A stretch of 64,000 nucleotides of DNA from Candidatus Omnitrophota bacterium. GTDB taxonomy: Bacteria; Ratteibacteria; UBA8468; B48-G9; JAFGKM01. A program made the position numbers and the translations under genes. How positions within the stretch are numbered: position 1 is the first letter of the stretch; each line of letters begins with the position of its first letter. Below are positions 3,983 to 60,808 of this stretch, piece by piece. The stretch is from the NCBI GenBank assembly GCA_023819375.1, contig JAMWDI010000003.1, forward strand, positions 1 through 64,000, given 5' to 3'. Under the pieces are notes generated by a model, which saw nothing but the letters and a program-made list of their open reading frames with translations, was not told where the DNA came from and made no database searches.

Positions 3983-5053
3983 TTATCTTATTTTTAATGT
4001 TATTATTGTAAATAAAGCAAGAATTATCCCTATAATCCAAAATCTGACAACAACTTTAGGTTCGGGTATTCCTTTTAATTCAAAATGGTGGTGTATAGGG
4101 GTCATCAGAAAAACTCTCTTTTTTCTTTTTTTAAATGATATGACTTGAATTATTACAGATAAGGCTTCAACGAGAAAGATTCCGCCAACAAAAATTAACG
4201 AAAGCTCCTGTTTTACTATTATTGCAAGAAGTCCTACAATACCCCCAAGAGGTAGTGAACCAGTATCACCCATAAAAATTTCGGCAGGATAACAATTAAA
4301 CCATAAAAATCCGAGACAAGCACCAACAAGAGCAGAAGAAAAAACTGTTGCTTCTTCTGCACCTTTTACAAAGGGAACATTCAAATATTTTGCAAAGTTT
4401 ATATTACTAACAACATAAGAAATTATAGCATAAGCAAGACTTACAGTCATTACAAGTCCTATTGCAAGCCCATCCATACCATCTGTTAAATTTACTGCGT
4501 TTGAAGTTGCAACAATAATAAAAACAGTGAATAGAATGAAATATTCTGCAAGTGGAATAACTATTTTTTTAAAAAAAGGAATATAAAGGGAAGTGTTGAA
4601 ATTTAATGTTTGATTGTATACCAGAACTACTCCTATAATAAAACCAATAAACATCTGACTTACAACTTTTATTAAAGGTCTTACTCCTTTGTGAGATTTA
4701 TATTTCAATTTTTTATAATCATCAAAAAAACCTACAAGGCCTAAGGAAATAGTTATAAATACAAGAAGCAAAATATATAAATTATTCAAATCCGCCCATA
4801 AAATTGTAGAAGTAAGTAAACTTCCAAGGATTAAAATTCCTCCCATAGTTGGTGTTTTTTCTTTTTTTTCTTCCCTAAAATCAAGCATATTAGGATGACA
4901 AAAATTTTTTAGTTTATTTATTAATTTTCTTCCAAACAAAATAGAAAAAAGGAGTGAAGTAAAAATTGATAGAGAAGCCCTTACAGTGACATATCTGAAA
5001 ATATTAAAACCAAACCAATAATCTTTAAAAGAATAAAGGAATTTGTATAACAT
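3983..5053 (-). CDS. mraY: Phospho-N-acetylmuramoyl-pentapeptide transferase
   Basis: 356-residue polytopic membrane enzyme that moves phospho-MurNAc-pentapeptide onto undecaprenyl phosphate to make lipid I. Diagnostic motifs are GFFDDYKK (residue ~110), the NAVNLTDGMDGLA loop (~185), FMGDTGSLPLGG (~265) and the C-terminal MTPIHHHFELKG. It sits between murF and murD with only one base separating it from each, in the classical dcw order. Confidence 0.97.
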   Translation of the reverse strand: MLYKFLYSFKDYWFGFNIFRYVTVRASLSIFTSLLFSILFGRKLINKLKNFCHPNMLDFREEKKEKTPTMGGILILGSLLTSTILWADLNNLYILLLVFITISLGLVGFFDDYKKLKYKSHKGVRPLIKVVSQMFIGFIIGVVLVYNQTLNFNTSLYIPFFKKIVIPLAEYFILFTVFIIVATSNAVNLTDGMDGLAIGLVMTVSLAYAIISYVVSNINFAKYLNVPFVKGAEEATVFSSALVGACLGFLWFNCYPAEIFMGDTGSLPLGGIVGLLAIIVKQELSLIFVGGIFLVEALSVIIQVISFKKRKKRVFLMTPIHHHFELKGIPEPKVVVRFWIIGIILALFTIITLKIR

Positions 5054-5054
5054 T

Positions 5055-38725: not shown

Positions 38726-39793
38726 ATGGAAAAATTAATATTAAAAAAGGGACTGATTTTACATCCAAAATATAAAGACATAGCAGAAGAGATATACCGT
38801 AAAATAGAGGAAAATGAATATTTTTATAGATTACCAAGTTTAAGAAAACTTTCCGAAGAATACAATGCTAACGTAAGAACAATTTGGAAGGCAATAAAAT
38901 TACTTGAGAAAAAGGGAGTAGTTAGAATCATTCCAAATAAAGGCATAGAAATAATAGGTAAAAAAACTATTTCAATAGGAATTATTGGTCTGTTAGATGA
39001 GAGATTTTTTTATCAAGAAAAAATTGAACCAGTTGATTATGAAGGTATTATATTAAATTATTTTTTTCCAAAAATCAGTGAGAAAGGAGATATATTAATT
39101 TATAAGAGAAATACACCTGATTTTCGTTATTCTGATTTATTAAAAAACCACACAAATATAGATGGTCTTGTAATAATCATTCCATGGAATAGGACAAAAA
39201 AAGAACTTTTAAGTTTTAGAAAAAACAATATTCCTTATATTACTATAGGAAATACTTTTGAAGAACCAATAAATTATGTTGATTCAGATAATGTAAATGA
39301 TACAAAAGAAGCAGTTAATTATTTAATTAAGAAAGGGCACAGAAGAATTTTATTTATTGGATTTACACAAGATAAGAATATACCACAATTAAGATTGGAA
39401 GGATATAAACTTGCTTTAAAGGAGAATAATATTCCAGTAGATAAAAATTTTATTATTATGGAGAATAGAGAAGATCCAACTTTTGAGAAAAAGATTAAAA
39501 AAATATTTTCCCAAAAGAATTTGCCCACAGCAATATTTGGAGCAGATATACCAAATACAATAGGACTTTTTGAGATTATAGGTGATTTAAAAGAAAAATT
39601 AGATGTTATTGTTTATGATGATTTTGGAGATATTATTGGTAGATATAAAAATTATTATGGAGTGATACAGCAACCACTTAAAGAGATTTCTGAAACAGCG
39701 ATTGATTCACTTTATAAAATGATAAAAGAAAAAAGATGCACTCTAATACAGATAAAATTAAAATCAAAATTAATTTTTAAAGAAAGGGGGTGA
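38726..39793 (+). CDS. GntR-type DNA-binding domain fused to LacI/PBP1-like sensor (AraR-like regulator)
   Basis: 355 residues. The N-terminal winged helix is GntR-like ([37 protein letters not shown], then [20 protein letters not shown]). Residues ~85-355 form a LacI/GalR-type periplasmic-binding fold ([50 protein letters not shown]). AraR of Bacillus has the same architecture. It likely senses a sugar and controls the following genes. It overlaps the pseudopilin frame by a few bases. Confidence 0.85.
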
Positions 39794-39798
39794 ATAAT

Positions 39799-40527
39799 AT
39801 GAAAAGAAATGGTTTTACACTAATAGAACTTCTTGTTGTAGTAGCAATAATCTCAATTTTGGCTGCGATGTTGCTACCAGCCTTAAGCAAGGCACGTGAA
39901 AGAGCTCGTCAAGCACTTTGTATGAATAATTTAAAACAACTTGGATTGGCTTTGTCAATGTATGCAGAAGATTATAATGGTTGGATCTTATGTGCTAATA
40001 ATTATGTAGAAGGGGGTTATCGTGAATGGACATCTAAATTGTATTATTTTGGTTATGTTAAAAATTGGGATTGTTATATATGTCCATCTTTCCCACCATA
40101 TAGAACAAGAAAAGGTCCTTATGAATGGGAAATGAAATATTTAACTTATGGTATGTGTTCTGGTTATCAGTATTCTAATTATATAAATATTAGGTGGGCT
40201 TATATGCCTCATAAATCAGAATTACTTGTCGATAGTATTAATGTTTCACCCCCAAGTTGGGTCAAAGATCATTTTGGTATAAATGGTCCTGTCCAATACC
40301 ATTATGTATTAAAATTTAGATCATATACTGAAAATCCTAAAATTCATTTTAGACATAACAAAAGAGCAAATTTTTTATTTTTAGATGGACATGTTGAATC
40401 AGTTAACAAAGATTATAAAATAACTGCATGGTATGATAAAAGAACAGCAGATTATTACAGAAGTTTATATCCACCAGATGGTTTAGTCCCTGTAAAAATT
40501 GCTTATCCCAATTATATTGAGCAATAA
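39799..40527 (+). CDS. Pseudopilin-like protein with H-X9-DG C-terminus
   Basis: 242 residues from the ATG at 39799, nine bases after AAAGGGGG; a GTG at 39790 lies too close to that site. The type IV prepilin signal is [20 protein letters not shown], with cleavage expected after Gly and Glu at +5. The C-terminus has [11 protein letters not shown], the H-X9-DG/DUF1559-like motif of the short pseudopilins abundant in PVC and Omnitrophota-type genomes. No secretion apparatus is nearby. It may be exported with, or help display, the adjacent large secreted enzyme. Confidence 0.8.
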
Positions 40528-40553: not shown

Positions 40554-43500
40554 ATGAAAAAATGGATTGCATTTGTATTTTTATTTAGTTTAAATTTATT
40601 TTCAGGGGAGATTTTTACTGATATTGAACAGGATGAGATTAAATACTGGAAAGGAGAAAAAGGACAAGCAATAGTTCCTCCCAAAGTCAGTATTTCTTAT
40701 GATTGTGTAGTTGGTAAAAATTCAATTAAAGCAGAAGCAATAGATAAGGGAGCCTATCAGGGAATCAGTTTAAATTTATCAGAACCAGTTGATTTAAAAG
40801 AATATGAAGGGATAGTTTTTTATATAAAACAAGGGTACTATCCAAAAAAGAATGCAAATTGTGTTTTTCGTATTAATTATAAAGATTGGTTTATTTATAC
40901 TGATTTTAACTCAGGAGATGGCGAATGGACAAAAATTTATATACCATTTGATACAGCAAGGTGGAAAGGTGCTGGTAACAGAGAAGTTCAATTTGAAAAA
41001 GCAATATCATTTGTTTGGTATCCTTATTCTATAATGAACGAACCAGGAAAATTTATAATGATAGATGGACTTGAATTGAAGGAGAAAAAAGAAAGTTCAA
41101 ATAAAATAATTATAAAAGAATACAAATATCTTTCCCAGATTCCTGAAAAGGATGTAAATTGTAAACTATTAATAGATGAAAAACTTGACAAAGAAAACCA
41201 AATAGTGTGTCCTGCATATTCTGAAAATCCTGATATTTTGTTTGATTTAGGAGGAATATATAAAATTGAAAGAATTAAAATTGAAGCAATAGCAGTTCCT
41301 TCTCATAATATTTCAAATGTAATAATATTTAGTAGTTTTGATGGTGAAAGGTGGGAACAAGTAGAAAACATAATAAATGAAAGTTCTGAAAGCCAAGAAA
41401 CATATCAAATAATAGAAAAAATAAATTCTGAAATAGTTGGTAAATATATAAGATTAAAATTTGATAGATTAAGAAGTGATTTCCCTATTTATATTGGAGA
41501 GATTTCTTTTTATGGTAAAATTGCGAGTGAAGAAGATATGAAAAAATTTGTATTAAAGAAATATTCGTTAGGACCATCTATACCTGAATTAAATAAAGAA
41601 AATTATTGGATGTTAAAGGAAAAAGATTTAGAAGTTTGGATAGACAAGAATACAGGGGTAATAGGTGGAATTTTTAAAAATGGACATAAAATTGTTGAAA
41701 GATTTTTTAATTCTTATATAATAGCAGAAAGAAATATAAGATATAAAAGTGATGGATATAAAGATAAAGTAATAGAAATTATTGATGTAAAAGATAACTG
41801 TGTAGGATTTAAGGTTAAAAATAGTGAAATACCTTATGTAGAAATTGAAAAAGAATATATTTTAAAAGATGATCGCCTAGAACAAAAACTAAATTTTAAA
41901 AATTTGATAGAGAAGAAGTATGTTATTTATAATATTACAGAAGTTGTTTTATCAAAAGAATACAGACAAAATGGAGTTTATGAGAGTTGGGGAGGCGGGC
42001 ATAAACTTGAAAGAAAATTTGCAGATGAAATTATAATTGATTTTCCTGCTGAATATGTTCCATGCTTAAGTTTTGAGAATTTTAAAGAAAATCAAGTTTT
42101 ATTTTATTACAGATATAAAAAAGATGAAAATTATGTTCCTTTAAGTTATTCTACTGGTGGACTCGGTTGTCTTGAAAAATACTCTGTAGTTTTTACATCA
42201 ACAGGATGGAGAGTTGGAGATTCAACATTTTTAATGAACAAAAAAGAAGATATTCATTCACTTGAAACACATCTATCTATTTTAAATGGCACTATTTTAA
42301 ATGCATATGATAGTTATTTAAATTTACCGGAAGTTAAAAAATTTAGAAGTGAAATAAAAAGGCCTAAATGGTTGAAAGATATAAAGTGTCAAGGAGATTT
42401 TGGATGGGAGGGTTTGTGGAGAAGCGCCAAAGAAAGAATTTTACAAAGATATCTTTCATTATTAAGAGAAGGTTTTATTGTTTTTCCAGCATTATATGAT
42501 CTAAATTTTACATGGGGAGAATTGCCTGTTGAGGGAGAAATTAGAAATTTATTTGGAGGAGTTCAAAAAGCAGAAGAATTAAAAAAAGAAATAGAAAAAT
42601 TAAAAGAAATTGGTAAAGGTAGAATAAAAATTGGAATATATACTTGGTTGTGGAGTGATAATCCTTATTCTAAACCTTTCAGAGAACATCCAGAATGGTA
42701 TATCACAAAAAGTGAAAGCGGGACAGATTTAAATTTCTTCACGGGTGTTCTTGAAAATTATTATAGAATGGCATCCAATGAAGATTCAAGGAAGGAAATG
42801 TTTGTCAGAATTTATAAAATGATTAATTATTACAATCTTGATATTTGGTATCTTGATGGAGGAGGAGCGTTTGAAATTATTGATTGGGAAAATATGCGAC
42901 TTGATGATCATTCTGGATGGCATAAACTTTATCTTGATTTGAGGAATGCTTTACAAAAAGACGATCCTAATAAAATAGTTTTTTTTAATCATCCAGAAAA
43001 TCCTTTATGTGATTTGGGTTATTATGAATCATTTGGAGGTATTTTGCAAAAAAACTGGCGACCTGGAGCAAATTGGATATGGAAATTCAAACTTTTTCAG
43101 TATAAAGATCCTTTACATTATCCATGCTTTATTTACTGGACCCCGAGTACAGAAGGATATTTTGAAGATTATATAGTAGGGGCAGGAGTAATTCCATGTT
43201 TTAATTCAAGAATAATTTCACCAAAAGATGTTGCATATGTCTCTGCCGGTTGGGAGATTAGACCTTTGGAAATTGCTGAAGCAAATCTCAAGCCTAACTG
43301 GAGATTTGATAAAAATACAAATATAGAAGGATATACTTTTAAAAAAAATTCATGTGGAGTGATATTTTTAAAATCTCATTATGAAAAACCGATAGAAGCA
43401 AAAATAGAAGTTGATTTAGAACCTCTTGGAATTATTGATAAAAATAAAAAAGTTTATTCCTGGTTGTTTCGGATAAATAATGCGAAAAACTGGAATGGAA

Positions 43501-45527
43501 GATTTGGTGAAATTGAACTTGAGGATATATATAAAAATACGGGATGGATATTTGATAGAGTTATAACACCTGTTTTTTTAAGTAATGACTTTTGGAAAGA
43601 AAGGTTAGAAAAAAATATAAAGTTAAATCCAGAAGAAGGAACTCTATGGATAATAACTCAATCACCTGTTTTTATTTACAGTATAGATAACCTACCAACC
43701 CAACTTTGGCTACCTGAAATTCGTAATGTGAAAGTAGAAGGTGAAATGGATGAAAACCAGATAAAAATTAAAGTGAAATCAGATAGAGGAAAAGTTGAAA
43801 TAGGATGCTTATTACCTGACAATATGAATGTTAAAAATGTTTATATTGGAAAAGAAAAAATAATCCCAAAACTTAATATAATAGAAAATATAAGGTTCAT
43901 TGTTTTTCCTGTTGAAAGGGGTGAATGGAATATTATTTGTGAGTTAGAAAAAGAAAAGCAAGAAATTTTAAGTTTACCTGAAATAAGTTATACAAATCCA
44001 ATCCCTGGTACAAATATGATTATCAAAATAAAATTTACACCTGAATGGATGGACAAAACATTTGTTTTACAATTTGAAAAAGAAAATAAAATATATTATG
44101 TAGAAAATTGCTTTGTAGATAAATTGAATTTTGAAAAAAGTATTTATATACCTCAACAGATAGAAAAAGGAATTTATAATTTAATTATTTCAGATACAAC
44201 AGGTAAAATTAAAAAAACTGTTAATATAGAATTTCCTGAAGGAAAGTCAAAGATTTATCTTCCACCTACCTTACTTCCTTTGTCGACAGAATTTGGAATA
44301 AAAGAAGTTAATATAAGGAAGGGAAATATTGAAATTTATTCTTATGGATGGGAATTTTCTAAGGGAGCAGGTGGATACAAAGTTGATCCTGATAAATTAA
44401 TAATTACTATTTATTCTCTCCCGATGTATGAAAGCCATTGGAATCTAATAGCTGCTGGGTTTGAAATGAAAGTAGAAAGGTATTTAAAAATTAAGATAAA
44501 AGGTAATTTCCAATTTTTCAACAGATATCAAGTATATTATAAAAAACATTCTCCAAGATGGAGTGACCCTAATTATTTTATAGGATTTATGCTTGATTTT
44601 CATACAAAGGATGGATATGTAAAAAGATCTGCAGTAGGCCTTGGAATTATAAAAAAAGAAAGATACTCATACGCACCTACTATATACGGATGTAAAAAAA
44701 ATCCGGATGAATATTTCTCTCTTTCAGATTTTGTAATAAGAGATGATATTGAAGAAGAAATAATGTGGATTGATTTAAAACAACTGGGAGCTCCTGAAAA
44801 CTGGGATGGTAAAATTTGGCTATCTCCTTTAATGCAAATTATATGTCCTGATAGAAAACTCTCTATTGAAATTTTGGCAACATCAACTACTATACAGAAA
44901 GAAAAAATAAAAGAGGGAATTATCTTAGGAGAAAAAATAGAAGGAAGGAAAAACTTTAAAGTCCCTAAGGTAAAAGACGGAATTGTAATTGATGGGAAAC
45001 TTGATGAATTTGATTGGAAAAATGCTTTAAAATTTGACGATTTTTCTCTTCTTTATTTTCCTATGATAAAAGCAAATCAAAAAACAGAAGCTTATTTACT
45101 TTATGATAATAGGCATCTTTATATAGGATTTTTATGCGAAGAAAAAGACAAAGAGATTTTAAATATTGAAAATTCAAAACCATGGTCAAATGATGGAATA
45201 GAATTTTTACTTGAGCTATATAAAGAAGACGGATTTTTTCATGGTATAATAGATGCCGGCGGTAGATATTATCAAGAAATTAAAAAGAATGGTAAAAAAG
45301 ACCAAATAATATTTTCTTTATTTAATTTTGCGGTTAACAAGGAAAAGGATTTTTTTATAATTGAAATAAAAATACCATTTAATATTATAAATATAGAAAA
45401 TCCAGAAGGGAAAAAAATTGGTTTTAACCTTATGAGAAATAGATTGTTTAAAGGAGATATACAGTATATTACACTTGTTCCTGGAAATAGTTATTTTGTG
45501 AAAGATAGATATTTTTTAGAGTTTTAG
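40554..45527 (+). CDS. Giant secreted glycosidase-like multidomain protein
   Basis: 1657 residues with a signal peptide (WIAFVFLFSLNLFSG) and AAAGGAGGAAAG before the ATG. Reading along: a jelly-roll domain (~20-185, ending FIMIDGLELKEK), a discoidin/F5-8C-like domain (~200-325), a beta sandwich (~335-600), then a TIM-barrel-like region (~610-900) with IKIGIYTWLWSDNPYS and LDIWYLDGGGAFEII, reminiscent of clan GH-D/GH31-type barrels whose Asp serves as nucleophile. Further beta domains follow, and ~1475-1657 (DGIVIDGKLDEFDWKNA) resembles a CBM9/DOMON-type carbohydrate-binding module. The exact GH family and substrate are not clear. It is probably controlled by the upstream regulator. Confidence 0.65.
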   Translation: MKKWIAFVFLFSLNLFSGEIFTDIEQDEIKYWKGEKGQAIVPPKVSISYDCVVGKNSIKAEAIDKGAYQGISLNLSEPVDLKEYEGIVFYIKQGYYPKKNANCVFRINYKDWFIYTDFNSGDGEWTKIYIPFDTARWKGAGNREVQFEKAISFVWYPYSIMNEPGKFIMIDGLELKEKKESSNKIIIKEYKYLSQIPEKDVNCKLLIDEKLDKENQIVCPAYSENPDILFDLGGIYKIERIKIEAIAVPSHNISNVIIFSSFDGERWEQVENIINESSESQETYQIIEKINSEIVGKYIRLKFDRLRSDFPIYIGEISFYGKIASEEDMKKFVLKKYSLGPSIPELNKENYWMLKEKDLEVWIDKNTGVIGGIFKNGHKIVERFFNSYIIAERNIRYKSDGYKDKVIEIIDVKDNCVGFKVKNSEIPYVEIEKEYILKDDRLEQKLNFKNLIEKKYVIYNITEVVLSKEYRQNGVYESWGGGHKLERKFADEIIIDFPAEYVPCLSFENFKENQVLFYYRYKKDENYVPLSYSTGGLGCLEKYSVVFTSTGWRVGDSTFLMNKKEDIHSLETHLSILNGTILNAYDSYLNLPEVKKFRSEIKRPKWLKDIKCQGDFGWEGLWRSAKERILQRYLSLLREGFIVFPALYDLNFTWGELPVEGEIRNLFGGVQKAEELKKEIEKLKEIGKGRIKIGIYTWLWSDNPYSKPFREHPEWYITKSESGTDLNFFTGVLENYYRMASNEDSRKEMFVRIYKMINYYNLDIWYLDGGGAFEIIDWENMRLDDHSGWHKLYLDLRNALQKDDPNKIVFFNHPENPLCDLGYYESFGGILQKNWRPGANWIWKFKLFQYKDPLHYPCFIYWTPSTEGYFEDYIVGAGVIPCFNSRIISPKDVAYVSAGWEIRPLEIAEANLKPNWRFDKNTNIEGYTFKKNSCGVIFLKSHYEKPIEAKIEVDLEPLGIIDKNKKVYSWLFRINNAKNWNGRFGEIELEDIYKNTGWIFDRVITPVFLSNDFWKERLEKNIKLNPEEGTLWIITQSPVFIYSIDNLPTQLWLPEIRNVKVEGEMDENQIKIKVKSDRGKVEIGCLLPDNMNVKNVYIGKEKIIPKLNIIENIRFIVFPVERGEWNIICELEKEKQEILSLPEISYTNPIPGTNMIIKIKFTPEWMDKTFVLQFEKENKIYYVENCFVDKLNFEKSIYIPQQIEKGIYNLIISDTTGKIKKTVNIEFPEGKSKIYLPPTLLPLSTEFGIKEVNIRKGNIEIYSYGWEFSKGAGGYKVDPDKLIITIYSLPMYESHWNLIAAGFEMKVERYLKIKIKGNFQFFNRYQVYYKKHSPRWSDPNYFIGFMLDFHTKDGYVKRSAVGLGIIKKERYSYAPTIYGCKKNPDEYFSLSDFVIRDDIEEEIMWIDLKQLGAPENWDGKIWLSPLMQIICPDRKLSIEILATSTTIQKEKIKEGIILGEKIEGRKNFKVPKVKDGIVIDGKLDEFDWKNALKFDDFSLLYFPMIKANQKTEAYLLYDNRHLYIGFLCEEKDKEILNIENSKPWSNDGIEFLLELYKEDGFFHGIIDAGGRYYQEIKKNGKKDQIIFSLFNFAVNKEKDFFIIEIKIPFNIINIENPEGKKIGFNLMRNRLFKGDIQYITLVPGNSYFVKDRYFLEF

Positions 45528-45532
45528 TGTAA

Positions 45533-46090
45533 ATGAAAATAATGATTGGGGATGCACACAAGTTTTAAAGGCAGAAGTAGAAATTTACATAACAGGGTTT
45601 ATATACCTTACAGAGTGGGCGGTAAAAAATGATGGAAAGTGTTCCAAGATGGTCTGTTTCAAGAAGTTGGTCTTTCAATTTTAGGAGATGGATTTAATAT
45701 TATTTATAGAAGACCAAAACCAATTTTTAAACCCGAAGGTAAGAATTGGCCAGAAGTTGAAGGAATAAAAGATCCAAGAATAAATAAGATAAGAGATACA
45801 TATTACTTACATTATTTATGTCATTATAAGTTTTACATGGACAAAATTGTTTTTGGAACAACAAAAAATTTTAATAAAATTTAATTATTCAAAAATAATT
45901 TTAACACTTAATATTCTTCTGTGATGTAAGAAAAAAATAAAAATTCGTGATCCACCAATTTAAAAGGTGATAAATGGATTATGTTTTTTCACAGTGTTAA
46001 TAGAAATGAAATATATTAAAGTTAGAATATATTGGCTGAATGGGAAAAAAATCCATATTAAAGTTATAAAAATTCAAAAAAGCAGTTTTA
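45533..46090 (+). pseudogene. Decayed GH130-type glycoside phosphorylase
   Basis: Pieces of one gene lie in several frames. Near 45600 YRVGGKK is followed by a stop. The frame 45639-45884 gives GDGFNIIYRRPKPIFKPEG and GIKDPRINKIRDTYYLHY, matching the GH130 pattern of SxDGxxF, PxxxP and EDPRxxxIxxxYYxxY with a Lys replacing the usual Glu. Around 45945-46035 DPPI and then, in another frame, WIMFFHSVNRNEIY match the C-terminal GxPPI and GWxxIYHGV region. Frameshifts, stops and an internal deletion make it non-functional. GH130 enzymes act on mannosides, so the neighbouring island once handled such glycans. Confidence 0.65.
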
Positions 46091-48250: not shown

Positions 48251-49000
48251 ATGAGATTTTTAGTAAAATTTCTTTCTGAAAAAGAAGTCCCTCTTCCTCT
48301 AAATATTAGAAGTTTTTTTATTTCGTTTATAAAAAAGACCTTTGAAAGTGAAGATAAGAATTTTTATAGGATTTTATTTGAAAATAAAAAAGCAAAACCA
48401 TATGTTTTTTCTCCATTTTTTGGTAAAGAATTTGAAAAGGGAAAAGTGGGAAAAGATATTTCCTTTATTTTTTCAAGTGGGGATTTTAAAGTAATTTCAA
48501 ATTTTTGGAATGGGCTAATAATTTTAAAAAAGAAAAAAGAAGACTTTATAGAAATAAAAAATGAAAAATTTTATTTGAGAGATATTAAACTTTTGCCAAA
48601 TAAAAAAATAAATAGTGGAAGGATTCTTCTTAAAACTATCGGGATTTCAGTTCTTTCAAATCCTGAAAGTTCTGCGAAAAATTTTAAAGAATGGTATATA
48701 ATTCCAGAAAGAGAAAATATGGAAAAATTCAATGAAATTTTGAGAAAAAGAACAGAGGAAAGGATAAAATTTATAGAGGGGATTGATAGGAAAATAAATC
48801 TTAAATTTTTATTTTCTGACAATTACGAAAATTCAATTAATGAGACAATTGTTCCACATTATAATGGATTTGTAAGAGGTTTTAGAGGGATATTTATTTT
48901 AGAAGGAGATATTGAAGTTTTACAGTTTTTGTATGACTATGGCTTTGGAGTGAGGACAGGACAAGGCTTTGGTCTTCTTGAAATAGTAAAAGAATTATGA
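48251..49000 (+). CDS. cas6: CRISPR RNA endonuclease Cas6
   Basis: 249 residues, two ferredoxin-like halves as in Cas6. The C-terminal glycine-rich stretch (NGFVRGFRGIFILEG, then YDYGFGVRTGQGFGLLEI) is the Cas6 signature. A catalytic His is not obvious from family alignment; His in VPHYNG is one candidate. It cuts the pre-crRNA in the repeat to leave an eight-base 5' tag, here expected to be ATTTAAAC. It is the first gene of the operon and overlaps the next gene by four bases (ATGA). Confidence 0.9.
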   Translation: MRFLVKFLSEKEVPLPLNIRSFFISFIKKTFESEDKNFYRILFENKKAKPYVFSPFFGKEFEKGKVGKDISFIFSSGDFKVISNFWNGLIILKKKKEDFIEIKNEKFYLRDIKLLPNKKINSGRILLKTIGISVLSNPESSAKNFKEWYIIPERENMEKFNEILRKRTEERIKFIEGIDRKINLKFLFSDNYENSINETIVPHYNGFVRGFRGIFILEGDIEVLQFLYDYGFGVRTGQGFGLLEIVKEL

Positions 49001-49317
49001 AAAAACATTTAATAAACGAAACAAAAATTAAAAATAAATTAAAAGGTGTACTTTCAGGTTATGATATTGACAGAATTTCTTTCAAAAGAGATAAAAGATT
49101 AATTATTGAAAATGTTTTAAATCATGGCCGAGATAAAGAAATAAAATGGGTTTTGAAAAATTATAAAAAGGATGACATTATTTCTGTTCTTAAAAATCCA
49201 TCAAAGGGCTTCTGGAACAAAAAATCATTGAATTTCTGGTTAACTATATTTAATGTAAAAATTGAAAAAGAAAAATATGAAAGAGCAATCAGAAAAATCA
49301 TTTTTGAAGCCAGATAA
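48997..49317 (+). CDS. DUF6922-like small protein, probable antitoxin partner
   Basis: 106 residues, basic, helical. It resembles the small proteins that precede AbiEii-type nucleotidyltransferase toxins, with the pattern LNHGRDKEIKWVLKNYKKDDIISVLKNP and KSLNFWLTIF. In such pairs it is the likely antitoxin, although that is inferred from position. Its start overlaps cas6 and its end overlaps the toxin remnant, so it is translationally tied to the cas operon. Confidence 0.65.
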   Translation: MKKHLINETKIKNKLKGVLSGYDIDRISFKRDKRLIIENVLNHGRDKEIKWVLKNYKKDDIISVLKNPSKGFWNKKSLNFWLTIFNVKIEKEKYERAIRKIIFEAR

Positions 49318-49667
49318 TACTGAAATTTTAAGTAAGCATCAGAAAGAAATTCTAAAATTACTTGATTTTACAAAAAAATTTAATTTTTATCTTGCTGGTG
49401 GAACAGGACTTGCTTTATATTTAGGGCATAGAAGTTCAATTGATTTTGATTTTTATACAGAAAAAAATTTAAAGATTTATCAATATATTTTAAAGAAGGA
49501 GAAATAGTAATGAATTCTGAAGATACTTTTGAAATAATTTTAAAAGAGATAAGTCAGCCAAAGAAAACGAAAAAAGAATTAAAATATTTGAAAATGTGAA
49601 ATGGGGCGATATGAAAAAATTTATAAAAAAAGAAGTTGAGTTATTCTTGAAGAAGGAGATAAAATGA
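49277..49667 (+). pseudogene. Broken AbiEii/AbiGii-type nucleotidyltransferase toxin gene
   Basis: The first frame (ATG 49277 to stop 49507) reads LSKHQKEILKLLDFTKKFNFYLAGGTGLALYLGHR and SIDFDFYT, the GG-x-A...DxDF core of the AbiEii nucleotidyltransferase fold. Near 49490 the sequence continues in another frame as FKEGEIVMNSEDTFEIILKEIS, the next conserved segment. After a deletion of most of the middle, the C-terminal piece KIFENVKWGDMKKFIKKEV follows and its stop overlaps the cas8b start (ATGA). The gene was once complete and coupled to cas8b, and is now inactive. Confidence 0.75.
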
Positions 49668-51451
49668 ACGACAAAATTATTCTCTATCCCTCAAACTGGC
49701 TCTACAACGCCGGAGTAGTCGGTTTTTTAAGAATACTAGAGTTTGCAGGAAAGGGAGATACTTTTGAATTTAAAGATGATGGGAGTGTTGAGATACAGAA
49801 AGTAGCATTGGATAATTTTGAAATTTGCTATTTCGAATACGTCTCCAAGTTATATTTAATACAAAGATTTTCTTTAAAAGAGCTGACAAGTTTTGTTAAA
49901 AATCTTAAGAATAAAGGGAGCGAGGAGGAGAAAAATGAAATAGGGAAAGTAGAAAGCAAAGTAAAAGAAAGCGAAAATGAAATTCAGAATAAAATTCTTA
50001 GTGTTAATGCGAATAAAGATTGGAATGGTTTTGCAAAAATGATATACGAGATACAAAATACTTTGTCTCAAAAAATCAATGAAATTAAGGAAGAATTAAA
50101 AAATATCCTTAAAAAAGAGACAGACAAAAAGATAGAACAAAACATTAATAAGATTGAGAAAAATTTTAAGAAAGTTTTTAATTCCATTTTTGAATTTAAA
50201 GCTCAAGCTGATTTTTTGGGTAATTTTTATTTTAACAAAAGTGAGGTTGCAAATCCAAAAGGAAGGAGATTAGAAAGATCCCAAAAATTTAAGGAAAAGT
50301 ATTTACTTCCTGTAATAGGATCTAAATCTGGAGATATATTATGTATCTTTTGTGGTAATAGATATTCCGAAGAAAATATTTCAGAACTTGCTGAGGGAGA
50401 TTTTTCTATTTTGGGTATCAGTAGTAAAAAATTTGCCAATTTCTATAATTATTACAGCAAAAATGGTATTTCTTACAATAGAAAATGCTCCTTATGTCAA
50501 TTAATTCTTCTTTGTGCATTTGCAGGTTTTAATTTGAAACCATTTTCACTTAGAGAATTGGATGAAACAGATTATATTTTTGTGAATTATCCGTCTTTCA
50601 AAGAAGCATTTAATGTGAACAATAAAATTCAAGAAGAATTTAAAAACTACCAGTTTGGGACAATGGGTGAAAAAATTAACACCTATATGAAATCCCTTGA
50701 ATTAATCTTAACTATTTCAGAAAAAAAGACAAGATGGTTATTGGAAAATACTTACTTTGCAGAAATAAAGACATCGCCGAATAAGAAAGAAGGAAAACCT
50801 AAATTTGTATATTTCAATATTGATAAAGCATTTGCAGAGGTATTTAATGAATTTGATATTGGTAAACTTTTCAAGGATCTTTCATTCTGGTATGAGGTTT
50901 ATAAAAATAATAGAGTATATCTTTCAACTGAGATATTAAAAAGATTGTTAGAGAAAAAACCTTTAATTTATATTGCTTTTAAAATGTTCTCGGAGAAAAT
51001 CAGGGATAAAGATACTTACATGCTTCCTATATGGAGCATAATTTTATTAGAATTTTTGATAAACCAAAAAAGGAGGTTAAACATGGATGCTAAAAAATCG
51101 TATGGGATATTAAAAAGTATCCAGGAGGAGGGCAGGAGGAGTTTTTCTCTTGAGGAGATTGATAAGGACAAGCGATTTCATATTTCTCAAAGGTTCTTAA
51201 CATTAATTAGAGGAGCCAGAAAGGAAGATTTTTATAATGAACTTCTAAGGCTTTTTGTAGTATATGAAAAACCTGTTCCAGAAACTCTTTTTTCATTGTT
51301 AACAGAAAGTGAAGAAATTTCCTTTCAAGAAAAAGCCTTAGCTTTTTTAACAGGATTTATAAATCCTGAAGAAACAGAAATTTTAGAGATAAATAAAAAG
51401 GAGGAGGTGAAAAATGAAGAGGCCATCTCTAACAATAACTTATATTGTTAA
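49664..51451 (+). CDS. cas8b: Type I-B Cascade large subunit Cas8b (Cst1, CXXC-CXXC)
   Basis: 595 residues. The N-terminal IILYPSNWLYNAGVVGFLRIL and the two Cys pairs CIFC (residue ~226) and CSLC (~275) are the signature of the Cst1/CXXC-CXXC family that serves as large subunit in the Tneap branch of type I-B. The Cys pairs likely bind zinc. It recognises the PAM and helps load the target by analogy. A helical C-terminal part (~440-580) may supply the small-subunit role. GAAGGAGATAAA precedes the ATG. Confidence 0.9.
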   Translation: MNDKIILYPSNWLYNAGVVGFLRILEFAGKGDTFEFKDDGSVEIQKVALDNFEICYFEYVSKLYLIQRFSLKELTSFVKNLKNKGSEEEKNEIGKVESKVKESENEIQNKILSVNANKDWNGFAKMIYEIQNTLSQKINEIKEELKNILKKETDKKIEQNINKIEKNFKKVFNSIFEFKAQADFLGNFYFNKSEVANPKGRRLERSQKFKEKYLLPVIGSKSGDILCIFCGNRYSEENISELAEGDFSILGISSKKFANFYNYYSKNGISYNRKCSLCQLILLCAFAGFNLKPFSLRELDETDYIFVNYPSFKEAFNVNNKIQEEFKNYQFGTMGEKINTYMKSLELILTISEKKTRWLLENTYFAEIKTSPNKKEGKPKFVYFNIDKAFAEVFNEFDIGKLFKDLSFWYEVYKNNRVYLSTEILKRLLEKKPLIYIAFKMFSEKIRDKDTYMLPIWSIILLEFLINQKRRLNMDAKKSYGILKSIQEEGRRSFSLEEIDKDKRFHISQRFLTLIRGARKEDFYNELLRLFVVYEKPVPETLFSLLTESEEISFQEKALAFLTGFINPEETEILEINKKEEVKNEEAISNNNLYC

Positions 51452-52319
51452 GGCATTTCCATGTAATTATGATGAAGGATATGGAAATGTCTCTGTAGCA
51501 AAGAAAGTCCATAGAGGAAGTGGAGAAACATATCTTTTTACATCTCGTCAGGCATTGAGATATTCTATAGTGAATTGGTTAGTAGAACACAATATATGGA
51601 AATATGCACAATTAACACCAGCTGAGGGTGTAATACAATATACTCCTGATCAATTAATAAAAGAATTTCCAGAAGAAGCGGATATTTTTGGCTATATGAT
51701 AACTACTGGAAGAAAACAACAAGCACAAACAAGAGCAGCAGTTGCCAAATTAACACATTTGATTTCTCTGGAACCATGGTATGGTGATCAGGAGCTTCTG
51801 ACAAATAAAAATTTTGCGGATAGATTAAAAAGAAATCCTGATATGGCAAACATTGAAACGGGATATAATTATTACAAATATACCCTTTCCGTTGATTTAG
51901 ATAGAGTTGGTGAAGATGAGAATTTCAACCATCATCTCACAAAGAAAGAAAAAATAAAAAGAGTATGCGACTTGATAGAAGCAACTAAATTTTTATTTCG
52001 CGACATACGAGGAAAAAGAGAAAGTTTAATACCTCTCTTTATAATTGGTGGAGTATATCATATAAAATCTCCATTTTTCCATAACGCTGTAAATATAGAG
52101 TTTAAAGGTTTTAAACCTTACATAAAATGGGAAGGAGTAAAACAAGTCCTTGAAACAGAATATAAGATTGATGAAAAAAATAAAATAAAAATAGAAAATT
52201 TCACATTCAAAGGAATCCAAAAAGGAGAATTTGGTGACGATTTGGGCATTAATGAATCCCCTTTTGAGATTTTGGACAAAATTAAAGAGGAGGTAGTAAA
52301 GGCATATAATGAACAATAG
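51414..52319 (+). CDS. cas7: Cascade backbone protein Cas7 (Cst2/DevR family)
   Basis: 301 residues, start at ATG 51414 after GGAGGTGAAA, overlapping the cas8b end by 38 bases. LTITYIVKAFPCNYDEGYGN, KVHRGSGETYLFTSRQALRYSIVNWL and the C-terminal LIPLFIIGGVYHIKSPFF fit DevR/Cst2 Cas7. Multiple copies coat the crRNA spacer. Confidence 0.92.
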   Translation: MKRPSLTITYIVKAFPCNYDEGYGNVSVAKKVHRGSGETYLFTSRQALRYSIVNWLVEHNIWKYAQLTPAEGVIQYTPDQLIKEFPEEADIFGYMITTGRKQQAQTRAAVAKLTHLISLEPWYGDQELLTNKNFADRLKRNPDMANIETGYNYYKYTLSVDLDRVGEDENFNHHLTKKEKIKRVCDLIEATKFLFRDIRGKRESLIPLFIIGGVYHIKSPFFHNAVNIEFKGFKPYIKWEGVKQVLETEYKIDEKNKIKIENFTFKGIQKGEFGDDLGINESPFEILDKIKEEVVKAYNEQ

Positions 52320-52998
52320 AATAATAAAACTCAAAACATTCCAGGAAAAAGCAGTTTTTAGGGTTCCATACTCAATGGAAGTAATAGAGACTTATCCATT
52401 ACCACCTTATTCTACAATTCTTGGTTTAGTTCATAATGTTCTTTCAAGTTTAACCATCATAAATGATATAAATATTTCTGTTCAAGGTAAATATGGGAAT
52501 TTAGTTCGCGAGTTTGTCAGGTATCACAAATATGAAAAAGATAAAAAGGAAGGGAAGCGCTATCCTATTATTGTTACATCTTTAATTGATCTTGAATTGA
52601 TAATTCATATTAAAATGCCAAATGAAGAACTTCACAGTAAACTTTTATGTTCTCTTTCAAATCCTCCTTACTTTTTATATCTTGGAAGTTCAGAAGATTT
52701 AATAATTGAGATGAAAGTTTGCGAAAGTGAAGAAAGTGAACTTGATCCCTTAGAAACAGAAAAGGGTGGAATAACTCTTCCATATAATTGTTATATACCT
52801 TTTGGAATTGCTCAGGATTTAGAATTAGATGGAATACCTTATTTGATACCTTCTTACTATCGACTTTTATCAAAATCTACAAAAGAAATCTTTAGAAATT
52901 TTGAAATGATAAAAGTCAAATATGCTCATGCAGGACAAACAGTTATAAAAAAATTAATAGTGGATAAGGATGGAATACCAATATGGTGGATGAAATAA
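52309..52998 (+). CDS. cas5: Cascade protein Cas5 (Cas5t/Cas5h type)
   Basis: 229 residues. The N-terminal FQEKAVFRVPYSMEVIETYPLPPYSTILGLVHNVL is typical of Cas5, which caps the 5' tag of the crRNA and touches Cas8. AGGAGG precedes the ATG. It overlaps cas7 by 11 bases and cas3 by 16. Confidence 0.92.
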   Translation: MNNRIIKLKTFQEKAVFRVPYSMEVIETYPLPPYSTILGLVHNVLSSLTIINDINISVQGKYGNLVREFVRYHKYEKDKKEGKRYPIIVTSLIDLELIIHIKMPNEELHSKLLCSLSNPPYFLYLGSSEDLIIEMKVCESEESELDPLETEKGGITLPYNCYIPFGIAQDLELDGIPYLIPSYYRLLSKSTKEIFRNFEMIKVKYAHAGQTVIKKLIVDKDGIPIWWMK

Positions 52999-55199
52999 TG
53001 GATGGAATAATAGCCAAATCATATCCTCAAAAGACATTGAAAGAACATACTAAAGATGTTATGAATTTATTTGATGAGTTAAAGAGATTAAGTGATAAAT
53101 TGGGTATAAAACTTGCAGAAGAGGATTGGAAGACATTGGAGTTAGCGTGTTTTTACCATGATTTTGGTAAAGCAAATTCGGTTTTTCAGAAAAAGATCAC
53201 AAAATCTCTCAATCTTTCAGATATCCCACATAATTTTTTATCAATCTTTTTCTTACAAAATAAAAATGAGATGCTTTTAAAACTTGTGGCTTTCCATCAC
53301 TGGAGAGATTTTCCTGATTTAAGAGAAGAGATGATAGAGCAAATTCGTGGTGATATTTCCTGCTATATTTCAAAAATACAAGAATATTTCAATAAATCTT
53401 TCAACTTAAGGAAAAGTCTTGAATTCAAAAAAGATTTGGAAAAACTTCAGAGATATTATTTTCGTAGAATAGATGGAAGCATTGATTTAAAAAAGGAATC
53501 CAAATTCATTATCCTTTTGGGTTTATTAAATAGAATAGACCATTCAGCCTCTGCTGGAGTTCCAGTTGAAATCGAGCCAATCAATAAATATGAAATAACT
53601 CAAAATTTTTTGCTAAAGAAGACTGCCGAACCATGGCAGTTATCAGAATTAAGTAAAGATTATAAAGATAAGAATGGAATTGTTACAGCATCTACTGGAA
53701 TGGGTAAAACAGAAATGTCTTTATTGTGGAGTAATTCCCAAAAGACTTTTTATACCCTACCTGTAAGAACCTCGGTAACTGCTATGTTTAGAAGATTGAA
53801 GGGACTATTTGGAGAGAAGAAAGTTGGATTGCTTTATTCAGATGCATTAAGCAATTTATTTCTTGAGGAAAACAAGTTATCAACAGATGATATTTTCTAT
53901 CATTATGATATAGCTAAAAATTTATCTTATCCATTGATAGTTTCTACAGCTGATCAAATTTTTACTGCAACTTTGAAATATTTAGGTTTTGAAAAAATTT
54001 ATGCAACCTTATCTTATTCAAGAGTTATAGTTGATGAGATACAAGCCTATTCACCGCAAACGATGGCTATAATAATTCATGGTTTAAATGAGATAGCTTC
54101 TATAGGTGGAAAATTTTTGATAGTTACAGCTACTTTTCCATCTTTCGTAAAAGATGAACTTCCACTTGATTTCTCAATAACTAAAATTCCAAATTTAAAA
54201 AAACATAATGTTAAGTTAGTGGATGAACCTTTAGCAGAAAATACCATAATAAAAAAACTACTATCAAAATTAATAAGCAAAGGAATAGGTAAAATTCTAA
54301 TTGTCTGTAATACTGTTGAAAAAGCCCAAGAGTTATATAAAATTTTAAAAGATTTAAAAGAATTTTCACCCTTATTACTTCATTCCAGATTTACGCGGTT
54401 TGATAGGAATTTTAAAGAAAATACTGTGCTAAGAGAAAATTTTAATGGAATTTTAATCTCTACTCAGGTTATTGAAGTTTCTCTTGATATTGATTTTGAT
54501 ATTTTAATCACTGAAATGGCTCCTTTGGATGTTTTAGTACAAAGAATGGGCAGAATTTATAGAAGATTTAAAAGTGATGGTGAATTTTATCCTTCAGAAC
54601 CTAATGTGTATATTTTTACAGAAGACCCTTCAGGAATTGGAACAGTTTATGAAAAGGAGATTATAGAAAAATCTAAAGATTTTCTAAAGAGTGGAATCTT
54701 ATCTGAGAAAGATAAGTATCAAATGACAAAAGAATTTTATTCTAAAAGGAATATACAAAATACAAAATATTGGACAAAATTTAATAATGCGCTAAATGGT
54801 ATTAAATCCTATTCAGTTAATAAAAAAACAGAGGCGCAGGAAATATTTCGTGATATAAGTCAAATTGAGGTTATTCCTCAAGGTTTGTTAGAATATGAAG
54901 TTCAAAATGAAAGAATACTAAAGAAACTTGGTTTTGACAAAGGGCCTTTTAGAAACGTTATTGAAAAAATAAAAATAGAAGATAGAAAAGAAAAAATCTT
55001 ATTTATAGAATTGATCAAAGATTTTATGGTACCAATTCCTCTTTATAGAATTAAAAAAAATTTTTTATCTCTTTGTAATTACATCCAAAATAGTAAACTA
55101 AAAGAATTTTTAACCAATGTTAAAGTAGTTGACTATAAATATAATAATGAATTAGGGCTTTTATGTGAAAAAGACGAAGACGCTATGGGAATTATTTAA
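52983..55199 (+). CDS. cas3: CRISPR nuclease-helicase Cas3 (HD + DExH)
   Basis: 738 residues. The N-terminal HD nuclease has the HD in CFYHDFGK (residue ~57) and AFHHWRD further on. The helicase has Walker A STGMGKTEMS (~236), DEIQAY (DExH box, ~350), VTATFPS (motif III) and QRMGRIYRR (motif VI, ~520). It unwinds and shreds target DNA recruited by Cascade. The start could also be the in-frame ATG at 52998. All catalytic motifs are intact, so the interference module looks functional. Confidence 0.94.
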   Translation: MVDEIMDGIIAKSYPQKTLKEHTKDVMNLFDELKRLSDKLGIKLAEEDWKTLELACFYHDFGKANSVFQKKITKSLNLSDIPHNFLSIFFLQNKNEMLLKLVAFHHWRDFPDLREEMIEQIRGDISCYISKIQEYFNKSFNLRKSLEFKKDLEKLQRYYFRRIDGSIDLKKESKFIILLGLLNRIDHSASAGVPVEIEPINKYEITQNFLLKKTAEPWQLSELSKDYKDKNGIVTASTGMGKTEMSLLWSNSQKTFYTLPVRTSVTAMFRRLKGLFGEKKVGLLYSDALSNLFLEENKLSTDDIFYHYDIAKNLSYPLIVSTADQIFTATLKYLGFEKIYATLSYSRVIVDEIQAYSPQTMAIIIHGLNEIASIGGKFLIVTATFPSFVKDELPLDFSITKIPNLKKHNVKLVDEPLAENTIIKKLLSKLISKGIGKILIVCNTVEKAQELYKILKDLKEFSPLLLHSRFTRFDRNFKENTVLRENFNGILISTQVIEVSLDIDFDILITEMAPLDVLVQRMGRIYRRFKSDGEFYPSEPNVYIFTEDPSGIGTVYEKEIIEKSKDFLKSGILSEKDKYQMTKEFYSKRNIQNTKYWTKFNNALNGIKSYSVNKKTEAQEIFRDISQIEVIPQGLLEYEVQNERILKKLGFDKGPFRNVIEKIKIEDRKEKILFIELIKDFMVPIPLYRIKKNFLSLCNYIQNSKLKEFLTNVKVVDYKYNNELGLLCEKDEDAMGII

Positions 55200-55501
55200 A
55201 AAATTTTGATTAGATAACTTTATTCATTTAAATGAATTGAGAATTATATGTATTCAAATTGTGTATTGTATTATTTGCCCAAAAATCATAATTATTTTTG
55301 TGTCAAATACAGATATAAAATTTTTTTATTGTAATGATGTTTCAAATTTGTTCAATTATATTTTAAATTTTTGTTATGAATTTGTAAAAAGGAAATGACA
55401 GAAAGGTAAAATCTATGCAATATCAAAAATATAAAGGTTCTGAAGTTGATTTTGTTCTTAATGGAAATTTGCTTTTGAGGTTAAGTAATAAACTATGATT
55501 T
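55200..55501 (+). other. Scar between cas3 and cas4 with palindrome and DUF4143-ATPase remnant
   Basis: 302 bases with no intact gene. ATTCATTTAAATGAAT (55222-55237) is a perfect 16-base palindrome just after cas3. Near 55420-55498 a frame reads YQKYKGSEVDFVLNGNLLL before a stop, which matches the C-terminal nuclease-like region (EVDFV) of DUF4143 AAA ATPases. This is the 3' scrap of a lost mobile or defence ATPase gene. No strong promoter for cas4 was recognised. Confidence 0.55.
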
Positions 55502-56014
55502 ATGATTGAATTAATTGAAGAAAGAATAACAGGGACACAGGTTGCTTATTATATTGTATGTAAAAGGAAGTTGTGGCTTTTTTCTCATCAGATACAAATG
55601 GAAGAGTTTTCTGATTATGTGATAATTGGAAAGATTATAAGTGAGGAAAGTTTTAAAAGAGAAAAATATAAAGAGGTAAATATTGAAAATTTAAAAATTG
55701 ATTATATAAAGGTTGGAAATGAGATAATAGTAAATGAAGTAAAAAAATCAAGAAAACTTGAAGAAAGTCATATATGGCAGGTGAAATATTATATTTATAG
55801 GTTAAGGAATTTAGGTTTGAATTGTTCTCGCGGCATAATACATTATCCAAAAATTTTTAAAAAGATTGATGTTGAATATAAAGAAGATGATACTGAAAAA
55901 ATTGAAGAGGCACTATTAAAAATAAAAGAAATTATAAATATGGAAAAGATACCAGAGGTTATAAATAAACCATATTGCAGAAGATGTTCTTATTTTGAAC
56001 TTTGTTATATATGA
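55502..56014 (+). CDS. cas4: CRISPR adaptation exonuclease Cas4
   Basis: 170 residues, a Cas4a-type RecB-family nuclease. The first cluster Cys is in YIVCKRKLWLF and the last three in CRRCSYFELC, which would hold an iron-sulfur cluster. Nuclease residues include the Glu-x-Lys in VNEVKKSRK and Gln in HIWQVKYYIYRL. It trims prespacers and checks the PAM with Cas1-Cas2. It overlaps the frame of cas1 only if cas1 used an upstream TTG. Confidence 0.93.
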   Translation: MIELIEERITGTQVAYYIVCKRKLWLFSHQIQMEEFSDYVIIGKIISEESFKREKYKEVNIENLKIDYIKVGNEIIVNEVKKSRKLEESHIWQVKYYIYRLRNLGLNCSRGIIHYPKIFKKIDVEYKEDDTEKIEEALLKIKEIINMEKIPEVINKPYCRRCSYFELCYI

Positions 56015-56018
56015 AGAC

Positions 56019-56990
56019 ATGAAGACATATTACATTTTTTCTAATGGTGTTTTAAGAAGAAAGGAAAATACGATTGTTTTTGAGACAACTGGTGGTGAGA
56101 AGAAGTTTATCCCGGTTGAAAATATTGAGCAGATTTTTGTTTTTGGAGAAGTTGATTTTAATAATAAATTTTTAAATTTTATAGGTCAGAATAATATATG
56201 CCTTCATATTTTTAATTATTATGGATGGTATTCAGGAACATTTTATCCAAGAGAGACAAATATTTCAGGGGATTTAATTATAAGTCAGGCAAGTTATTAC
56301 ATAGATTATGAAAAAAGGATTAATCTTGCCAAAAAATTTGTTGAAGGGGCAATACATAATATAAAAAGGAATTTACAAAAAAGAGATGGTTTTAAGAATG
56401 AAGAAAATCAAATAACTGAATATGAAAATCAAATAAAGTATGCAAAAAATATTAATCAACTTATGAGTATAGAGGCACATGTAAGAAAATTGTATTATGA
56501 TTGTTTTGAAAAATTGACTGGTTGGAATTTTGAAGAAAGGACTATTCAACCACCTAAAAATCCTCTAAATGCCTTAATATCTTTTGGAAATTCTCTTGTT
56601 TATAGTGTAGTTTTAAAAGAAATATATTTAACACCTTTAAGTCCATTTATAAGTTTCTTACATGAACCGAGTGAAAGAAGATATTCTTTATCTCTTGATG
56701 TTTCTGAAATTTTCAAACCGGTTCTATCAGATAGATTAATTTTAAAATTAATTGATTTAAAAATGATTAAAGAGGAAAATTTTGTAAAGGAAATGGGTGG
56801 TACTTATTTGAATGAAGAAGGTAGAAAAATTTTTGTTGAGGAATTTGATAAACAATTGGAAACAACTATTTTACACAGAAAGTTGAGAAAAAAAGTTAAG
56901 TATAAGACATTGATAAAACTTGAACTTTATAAAATAGTGAAACATATACTTGGTGAAAAGGAGTATCAACCATTAAAGGTTTGGTGGTAA
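56019..56990 (+). CDS. cas1: CRISPR integrase Cas1
   Basis: About 323 residues from the ATG at 56019, four bases after cas4. An upstream TTG at 55995 is less likely. Metal-site residues fall in SIEAHVRKLYYDCF (Glu), SFLHEPSERRYSLSLDVSEIFKP (His, Asp). Subtype I-B style Cas1 sequence. It integrates spacers at the leader end. Confidence 0.95.
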   Translation: MKTYYIFSNGVLRRKENTIVFETTGGEKKFIPVENIEQIFVFGEVDFNNKFLNFIGQNNICLHIFNYYGWYSGTFYPRETNISGDLIISQASYYIDYEKRINLAKKFVEGAIHNIKRNLQKRDGFKNEENQITEYENQIKYAKNINQLMSIEAHVRKLYYDCFEKLTGWNFEERTIQPPKNPLNALISFGNSLVYSVVLKEIYLTPLSPFISFLHEPSERRYSLSLDVSEIFKPVLSDRLILKLIDLKMIKEENFVKEMGGTYLNEEGRKIFVEEFDKQLETTILHRKLRKKVKYKTLIKLELYKIVKHILGEKEYQPLKVWW

Positions 56991-56991
56991 A

Positions 56992-57273
56992 ATGAAAGTA
57001 ATTTTTATATATGACATTGAACTTAAAGAGAAAAAGGACCAAAAAAGATTAAATAAAGTTAAAAAGATTGGAAGGAAATATTTAATACATATTCAGAAAT
57101 CAGTTTTTGAAGGTGAATTAACTGAAAGTCAGATATATAGAATGGAAAATGATGTTTTGAAAGTGATTGATAAAAATAGGGACAGTGTAATCTTTTATAT
57201 TTTGCCTGATGGAGTGAAGTTGGAAAGAAAAATTTTAAGTAATTTACCAGACAAGACTAAAAATGTGTTATGA
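56992..57273 (+). CDS. cas2: CRISPR adaptation protein Cas2
   Basis: 93 residues, a ferredoxin fold starting MKVIFIYDIELKEKKDQKRLNKV, with the core Asp and the IGRKYLIHIQKSVFEGELT strand typical of Cas2. It bridges two Cas1 dimers. It begins one base after cas1. Confidence 0.94.
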   Translation: MKVIFIYDIELKEKKDQKRLNKVKKIGRKYLIHIQKSVFEGELTESQIYRMENDVLKVIDKNRDSVIFYILPDGVKLERKILSNLPDKTKNVL

Positions 57274-57405
57274 AGTAAAATTGATCTTTGAAAATTTGTG
57301 GTTTCTGGCAGATTGAAAATCAATAAGTTGCAGAGTTGGGGGTTTGACGCAAAATTTGAATAAAAAATTTGACAGGCCCCTTAATTTTATTATAAAATTT
57401 TTACG
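57274..57405 (+). promoter_or_regulatory. CRISPR leader
   Basis: 132 AT-rich bases between cas2 and the first repeat. The promoter TTGACA (57369-57374), 16 bases, TATAAA (57391-57396) would start transcription at the first repeat (57406). GCAGATTG in the leader near 57308 resembles the repeat core CAATCTGC in reverse complement, a possible integration or structural element. Orientation is supported by decay of the distal repeat. Confidence 0.75.
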
Positions 57406-60400: not shown

Positions 60401-60808
60401 ACGAAGCAATAAAACTTTATGAGAGTATGGAATATGATGTTTCAATCTGCCAAAGAGGAATTTAAACACAAGGAGATTTATGGATAACTATAACACCACT
60501 CTACTCTGTTTCAATCTGCCAAAGAGGAATTTAAACTTCCTGCGGGCACGCGCGGAAATGAAAAGAATTTTAAGTGTTTCAATCTGCCAAAGAGGAATTT
60601 AAACGAGGACGCAGGGGCGACGTTGTACTACGGAACAAGCAAGTTTCAATCTGCCAAAGAGGAATTTAAACAACACATACCGAAGAATCACACCAATCTT
60701 CCGCCCCAGTTTCAATCTGCCAAAGAGGAATTTAAACTTTTTTATTATTTCTCTAAATAATTTTGGAGATTTTAAAATGGTTTCAATCTGTCAAAGAAAA
60801 TTTGGATG
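57406..60808 (+). CRISPR. Type I-B CRISPR array: 50 full repeats, one degenerate terminal repeat, 50 spacers
   Basis: The repeat is 29 bases, begins GTTTCAATCTGCC, has AAAGAGG in the middle and ends AATTTAAAC; GTTT and AAAC ends are complementary. Full copies begin at 57406, 57475, 57541, 57607 and so on to 60709. All were read as identical except the copy at 60239, which has ATTTGAAC at its end. A decayed copy at 60780 (TCTGTCAAAGAAAATT) marks the leader-distal end. Spacers are 35-42 bases, mostly 37-40. Three spacers occur twice: the one at 58252 recurs at 58662, and the neighbours at 59331 and 59398 recur together at 60135 and 60202. Expected crRNA 5' tag is ATTTAAAC. Confidence 0.98.

Follow-up and report, generated by a model that had tools for sequence, protein, structure and literature searches.

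Why does a single H-X9-DG pseudopilin gene stand between a sugar-type regulator and a giant secreted protein, and what kind of enzyme is that giant? Single genomes of PVC and related bacteria encode pseudopilins of this type by the dozen, annotated but unexplained. Pseudopilin expansions have been reported before, with 79 PulG-type genes for Fimbriimonas (PMC4072686) and 74 DUF1559 genes for Rhodopirellula (PMC2754498). Searching the literature for a general function of H-X9-DG pilins returned nothing. The locus described here lies in a stretch of 64,000 nucleotides, referred to as the window, which is part of contig C8 of an AT-rich genome of 1.73 Mb (G000) encoding about 41 H-X9-DG pilins; the phylum was sampled with 35 genomes.

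Regulator, pseudopilin and giant form one tight operon, with an overlap of 4 bases between the first two genes and a gap of 26 bases between the last two (Table 1). Both the coordinates and the Pfam and TIGR04294 matches agree with the first-pass annotation, which had described a GntR/LacI-like sensor and one H-X9-DG pseudopilin preceding the giant in the same orientation. The pseudopilin may start at GTG 39790 or at ATG 39799, and its assignment to the H-X9-DG group follows from a TIGR04294 score of 24.9 bits against a cut-off of 19 together with the N_methyl motif (PF07963). The giant reading frame has an ATG start, an AGGAGG ribosome binding site and a signal-type N-terminus, MKKWIAFVFLFSLNLFSG. 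Directly downstream lies a decayed GH130-like gene. Since GH130-like genes, intact ones included, adjoin giant-family relatives at six other homolog loci, this remnant probably represents a former fourth gene of the operon unit. At another locus (L205), the enzyme is flanked by two GH130-like genes, one (4673-5686) separating it from the pilin and the other following the enzyme. Elsewhere in the window (48251-60740), a Type I-B CRISPR-Cas system is encoded (Cas6b, Cas8b, Cas7b, Cas5b, Cas3b, Cas4b and Cas1b), with an array of about 50 repeats, GTTTCAATCTGCCAAAGAGGAATTTAAAC, downstream of the Cas genes. Within the array, a 163-base stretch (59301-59463) is repeated with 99% identity at 60105-60267.

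Table 1 Features of the regulator-pseudopilin-giant operon (positions in the window).
Feature	Position	Strand	Evidence
Transcriptional regulator, 355 aa, GntR-type HTH and LacI-type periplasmic-binding-like sensor domain	38726..39793	+	PF00392 E 2.1e-8; PF13377 E 2.4e-10
H-X9-DG (DUF1559/SBP_bac_10-type) pseudopilin	39790..40527	+	PF07963 E 1.1e-9; PF07596 E 1.1e-10; TIGR04294 E 1.2e-5
Giant: secreted multidomain glycosidase-type protein, 1657 aa, unclassified family	40554..45527	+	ORF; 40% full-length homolog in G019; 47-member core alignment
Putative signal peptide of giant, about residues 1-18	40554..40607	+	Sequence itself; heuristic only
F5/8 type C-like (galactose-binding-like) domain, residues 207-291	41172..41426	+	PF22633 E 5e-4, under Pfam cut-off
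Beta-supersandwich N-terminal to barrel, residues 352-591	41607..42326	+	AlphaFold2 model; mutarotase/supersandwich folds Z 16-17
(beta/alpha)8 catalytic-type barrel, residues about 601-921	42354..43316	+	AlphaFold2 model; alpha-galactosidase barrels Z about 15
D768, predicted nucleophile, directly after barrel strand 4	42855..42857	+	Invariant, 47/47; profile-aligned to 1zy9 Asp339
E825, predicted acid/base, in barrel strand 6	43026..43028	+	Invariant, 47/47
CBM9-like carbohydrate-binding domain, residues 1479-1630	44988..45443	+	PF06452 E 6.8e-9; 1i82 CBM9 E 1.3e-4
Decayed GH130-like gene remnant	45528..45884 (at widest 45528-46000)	+	PF04041 E 9e-7; in-frame stops

Sequence searches place the giant in no known enzyme family. 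CBM9_1 is its sole Pfam match above cut-off and no NCBIfam model matches it, as expected from the earlier statement that the protein fits no family that could be named. Searching the 47-member core alignment against Pfam and NCBIfam likewise gave no convincing family; a minority of the members give marginal matches to GHL6, Melibiase, GHL15 and GH66. The profile searches, proposed earlier as a check, yielded no confident match to a known GH family.

The core of the giant (residues 352-1145) was modeled with AlphaFold2 from the alignment of 47 members, which come from PVC and Armatimonadota-type genomes. The resulting model is confident (pLDDT 91.8, pTM 0.91); an earlier model built from 5 sequences was poor (pLDDT 53) and was discarded. 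The predicted fold consists of a β-supersandwich, a (β/α)8 barrel and a C-terminal β-domain, bearing out the TIM-barrel-like core with β-domains and the glycosidase-like character that the first-pass annotation had read from the sequence. In clan GH-D enzymes, the nucleophile is found after barrel strand 4 and the acid/base at strand 6. Four residues are kept by all 47 core members, D768, N812, E825 and P914, and the first and third of these are predicted to be the catalytic pair. A profile match to the Thermotoga alpha-galactosidase 1zy9 (E 4e-5) ends exactly at its Asp339, which we take to be nucleophile D327 plus a 12-residue tag. Based on the fold and the invariant strand-4 Asp and strand-6 Glu, the model suggests that the giant represents an unclassified glycosidase family of putative retaining alpha type.

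Structural comparisons (Foldseek, VIA-align) returned GH31, GH66, GH97 and GH129 among the neighbours, with GH36 nearest. The closest structure is the GH36 alpha-galactosaminidase from Flavonifractor plautii (9ayu; Foldseek E 3e-18), which aligns to the core model over 587 residues with a VIA Z of 18.1 and an rmsd of 4.6. The GH36 fold, supersandwich plus (β/α)8 barrel, is therefore present in the giant, which shares with FpGalNase (9awt/9ayu) the C-terminal β-domain, the Asp after strand 4 and a stretch around S-x2-S-x4-HP-[ED]-W. However, overall identity is about 10%, the giant is far larger and multidomain, and the GH36 Melibiase model (PF02065) does not match the window protein and is marginal in 6 of the 47 members (best E 4e-5). 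GH36 enzymes combine an Asp at strand 4 with an Asp at strand 6, whereas the giant family, compared by strand position, has an invariant Glu at strand 6 (47/47). This replacement sets the giant family apart from GH36 and resembles GH129, in which the catalytic pair is Asp/Glu. The GH129 alpha-N-acetylgalactosaminidase NagBb (5wzn) is similar to the core model in fold (Z 15.7, rmsd 4.1, 530 residues aligned), and the predicted D768/E825 pair, judged by strand position, would fit an Asp nucleophile and a Glu acid/base as in GH129; identity is 8%, and there was no match at the sequence level.

A scan with the single giant protein found no close relatives, while an alignment-based scan recovered 11 loci with relatives, from Kiritimatiellota, Zipacnadia, Armatimonadetes and a rumen bacterium. 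One genome of the same family as the window genome (G019) encodes one full-length relative with 40% identity and several partial ones, and the giant family occurs in 32 of the 197 genomes sampled from one class of Kiritimatiellota type. Two genomes from the same family (G040 and G043; L148, L149, L152-L160), including one rumen MAG, encode five and six giant-family paralogs or fragments, some of them in tandem.

Pairing of pilins with secreted enzymes was quantified in genome stretches covering the pilins, comparing 42 pilin-type genes with 454 other genes and calling signal peptides by a hydrophobicity rule rather than by SignalP. A same-strand gene follows 40 of the 42 pilins, at a median gap of 20 bases, and for 37 of 42 this next gene encodes a signal-peptide protein. 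Signal-peptide proteins of at least 500 aa come next after 24/42 pilins and after 17/454 other genes (odds ratio 34, Fisher p 6e-19), an association far from random that substantiates the repeated pairing suspected in the first-pass annotation. Giant enzymes are one class of partner: small secreted proteins, further pilins and cytosolic enzymes also occur downstream, so the pairing stands as non-random but not as exclusive to giants. Downstream genes match GH123, GH42, DUF4838, GH67N, NAGLU, GH39 and CBM9 families. Upstream, regulators of sugar type predominate: among 32 neighbours, 14 match Peripla_BP_3 (LacI-type sugar-binding), and GntR (8), LacI (6), AraC (2) and ROK (2) matches form overlapping sets. 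The regulator-pilin-secreted enzyme layout is a strong tendency and not a law, because it is weaker in two further genomes from this phylum (same-strand next gene for 16/19 pilins, with 9 signal-peptide proteins and 3 pilins) and because several pilins precede cytosolic enzymes in a sample of one pilin per genome.

Further observations concern individual pilin loci. In one genus of the phylum (L235, L236, L237, L241 and L246), H-X9-DG pilins repeatedly pair with a non-secreted enzyme: the protein encoded next lacks a signal peptide, and its start, KKVLVADGAWGTE, resembles homocysteine methyltransferases by eye. In six Kiritimatiellota-type pilin genes (L191, L192, L219, L314, L334 and L339), FTLIELLV is directly followed by an in-frame insertion of some 28-69 residues, behind which the motif recurs. 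The insertions belong to a few sequence types, which looks as though the conserved prepilin motif were the recurrent target of some element. An apparent pilin-enzyme gene fusion (C3:2561-6451, 1297 aa) was rejected as an artefact arising from a run of N.

Within two genes upstream of 22 of 46 giant homologs, a same-strand pilin is encoded, and several of these are preceded by LacI/GntR genes. Stripped of its conserved N-terminal helix, the window pilin scores at best 83 bits against pilins that accompany this enzyme in other phyla and at best 26 bits against its own-genome paralogs (local comparison). For a less biased test, 197 genomes of another phylum were searched with the C-terminal 190 residues of the pilin. 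The seven best matches as well as ranks 9 and 11, that is 9 of the top 11, sit directly upstream of enzyme homologs, with a GH130-like gene between pilin and enzyme homolog in match 4. Searching the same 197 genomes with the window regulator gave 19 matches, none at enzyme-homolog loci, and within the local set this regulator is most closely related to others from its own genome. A second pilin (C9:33905), located before a 1162-aa CBM9-bearing protein, behaves similarly, with 4 of 5 matches upstream of relatives of that protein, while a third (C12:138337) proved generic, with no enzyme co-inheritance in the same test. As pilin matches lie at enzyme-homolog loci and regulator matches elsewhere, pilin and enzyme are co-inherited across phyla in two of the three cases tested. 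In the window operon, for which the regulator was tested as well, it is the regulator that has been exchanged while the pilin stays with the enzyme. In a tree of 98 pilins, enzyme-linked pilins cluster more than in shuffles (8 changes vs 19.9), with the window pilin placed in a polytomy.

Our best reading, held with middling confidence, is that the operon represents a sugar-inducible three-gene unit coupling a retaining alpha-glycosidase to an enzyme-linked minor pseudopilin, where partnership, export and substrate are predicted features. The regulator, judged by its family, would sense a sugar product and control the operon. The giant would be exported by Sec and held on a polysaccharide by its flanking CBM9-, F5/8C- and other β-domains, and it would hydrolyze or transfer a terminal alpha-linked sugar by a retaining mechanism, D768 serving as the nucleophile and E825 as the acid/base. 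The GH130-like genes near the enzyme hint weakly at an alpha-decorated beta-mannoside as substrate. The pseudopilin, in turn, most likely joins, as a minor subunit, the pseudopilus of the type II secretion or type IV pilus apparatus of the cell, where it would help its cognate enzyme to leave the periplasm or keep it at the surface. Such a pseudopilus could be built, given the ATPases, platform proteins and secretins encoded in this genome (T2SSE x3, T2SSF x2, Secretin x2, T2SSG x1). Operon structure and co-inheritance are compatible with both surface display and dedicated export, the two arrangements suggested in the first-pass annotation, but are no proof that pilin and enzyme touch.

Several observations count against this best reading. 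Co-inheritance of adjacent genes can stem from linked transfer without any contact between the products, and about half of the giant homologs are pilin-free within two genes. Within the enzyme family, a mirror-tree comparison gives a weak signal of strict coevolution, similarity among pilins correlating only weakly with similarity among enzymes (Mantel 0.14, p 0.03). Among the pilins of the window genome, similarity does not predict similarity of the downstream genes (p 0.3), and similar pilins can precede unrelated enzymes. The last point, together with the generic third pilin, would also follow from plain linkage, with the pilin being part of a standard operon layout and the pilin-enzyme unit moving between lineages by transfer; transfer was reported for the Verruconatronum alginate-cluster genes including the pseudopilin gene (PMC13274419). 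We nevertheless consider plain linkage without a specific partnership improbable: the regulator is equally adjacent and does not follow the enzyme, and the pilin does so in two of three cases.

As the main alternative, the pilin could be a substrate-capturing or sensing minor pilin whose C-terminal domain binds the glycan cut by the enzyme and tethers the cell to the polymer; it would then follow the enzyme because both match one substrate and not through contact. This would account for co-inheritance with one enzyme family and for the position after a sugar-type regulator, and it fits the pilins located before cytosolic enzymes, which the best reading accommodates poorly. Glycan-binding minor pilins are known from Streptococcus sanguinis (PMC9934059). 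On the other hand, the window pilin has no binding-domain match and the enzyme already possesses CBM-like domains of its own, making a capture or sensing role somewhat doubtful.

Polysaccharide utilisation loci of Bacteroidota (SusC/SusD) combine a substrate-specific regulator with neighbouring secreted enzymes in many modular copies per genome. The operons described here are similar in these respects, except that the conserved adjacent position is taken by a pseudopilin; no SusC/SusD-type genes were seen among the best-scoring neighbour families of the pilins. The closest precedent, from a 2026 paper, is the verrucomicrobial alginate cluster of Verruconatronum alginivorum, in which a PulG-like pseudopilin gene likewise lies within a polysaccharide-degradation cluster (PMC13274419). 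There, a pseudopilin is over-expressed on alginate, 67 pseudopilin paralogs are encoded and T2SS export is proposed. That system differs from the window operon in being a lyase cluster of another phylum, and the text consulted describes neither an enzyme-specific co-inheritance test nor a regulator-pilin-enzyme rule. Within the literature searched, what appears to be new is this family of enzymes, the quantification of the pairing across a genome, and the evidence for a pilin that, unlike the regulator, travels with the enzyme between phyla.

The giant defines an uncatalogued glycosidase-type family, and its conserved pairing with a pilin, under an exchanged regulator, suggests that these orphan pilins, abundant as they are, each act in concert with particular enzymes. 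We tentatively hypothesize that H-X9-DG pseudopilins are cognate adaptors, each for one enzyme family, that would guide or hold the enzyme at the pseudopilus and thereby provide modular, sugar-by-sugar display or export in a role similar to that of SusC/SusD. If pilins do follow specific enzymes through evolution, they could serve as predictors of what an enzyme does and whether it is exported, and a single pair would suffice for a direct test of the role of the pilin.
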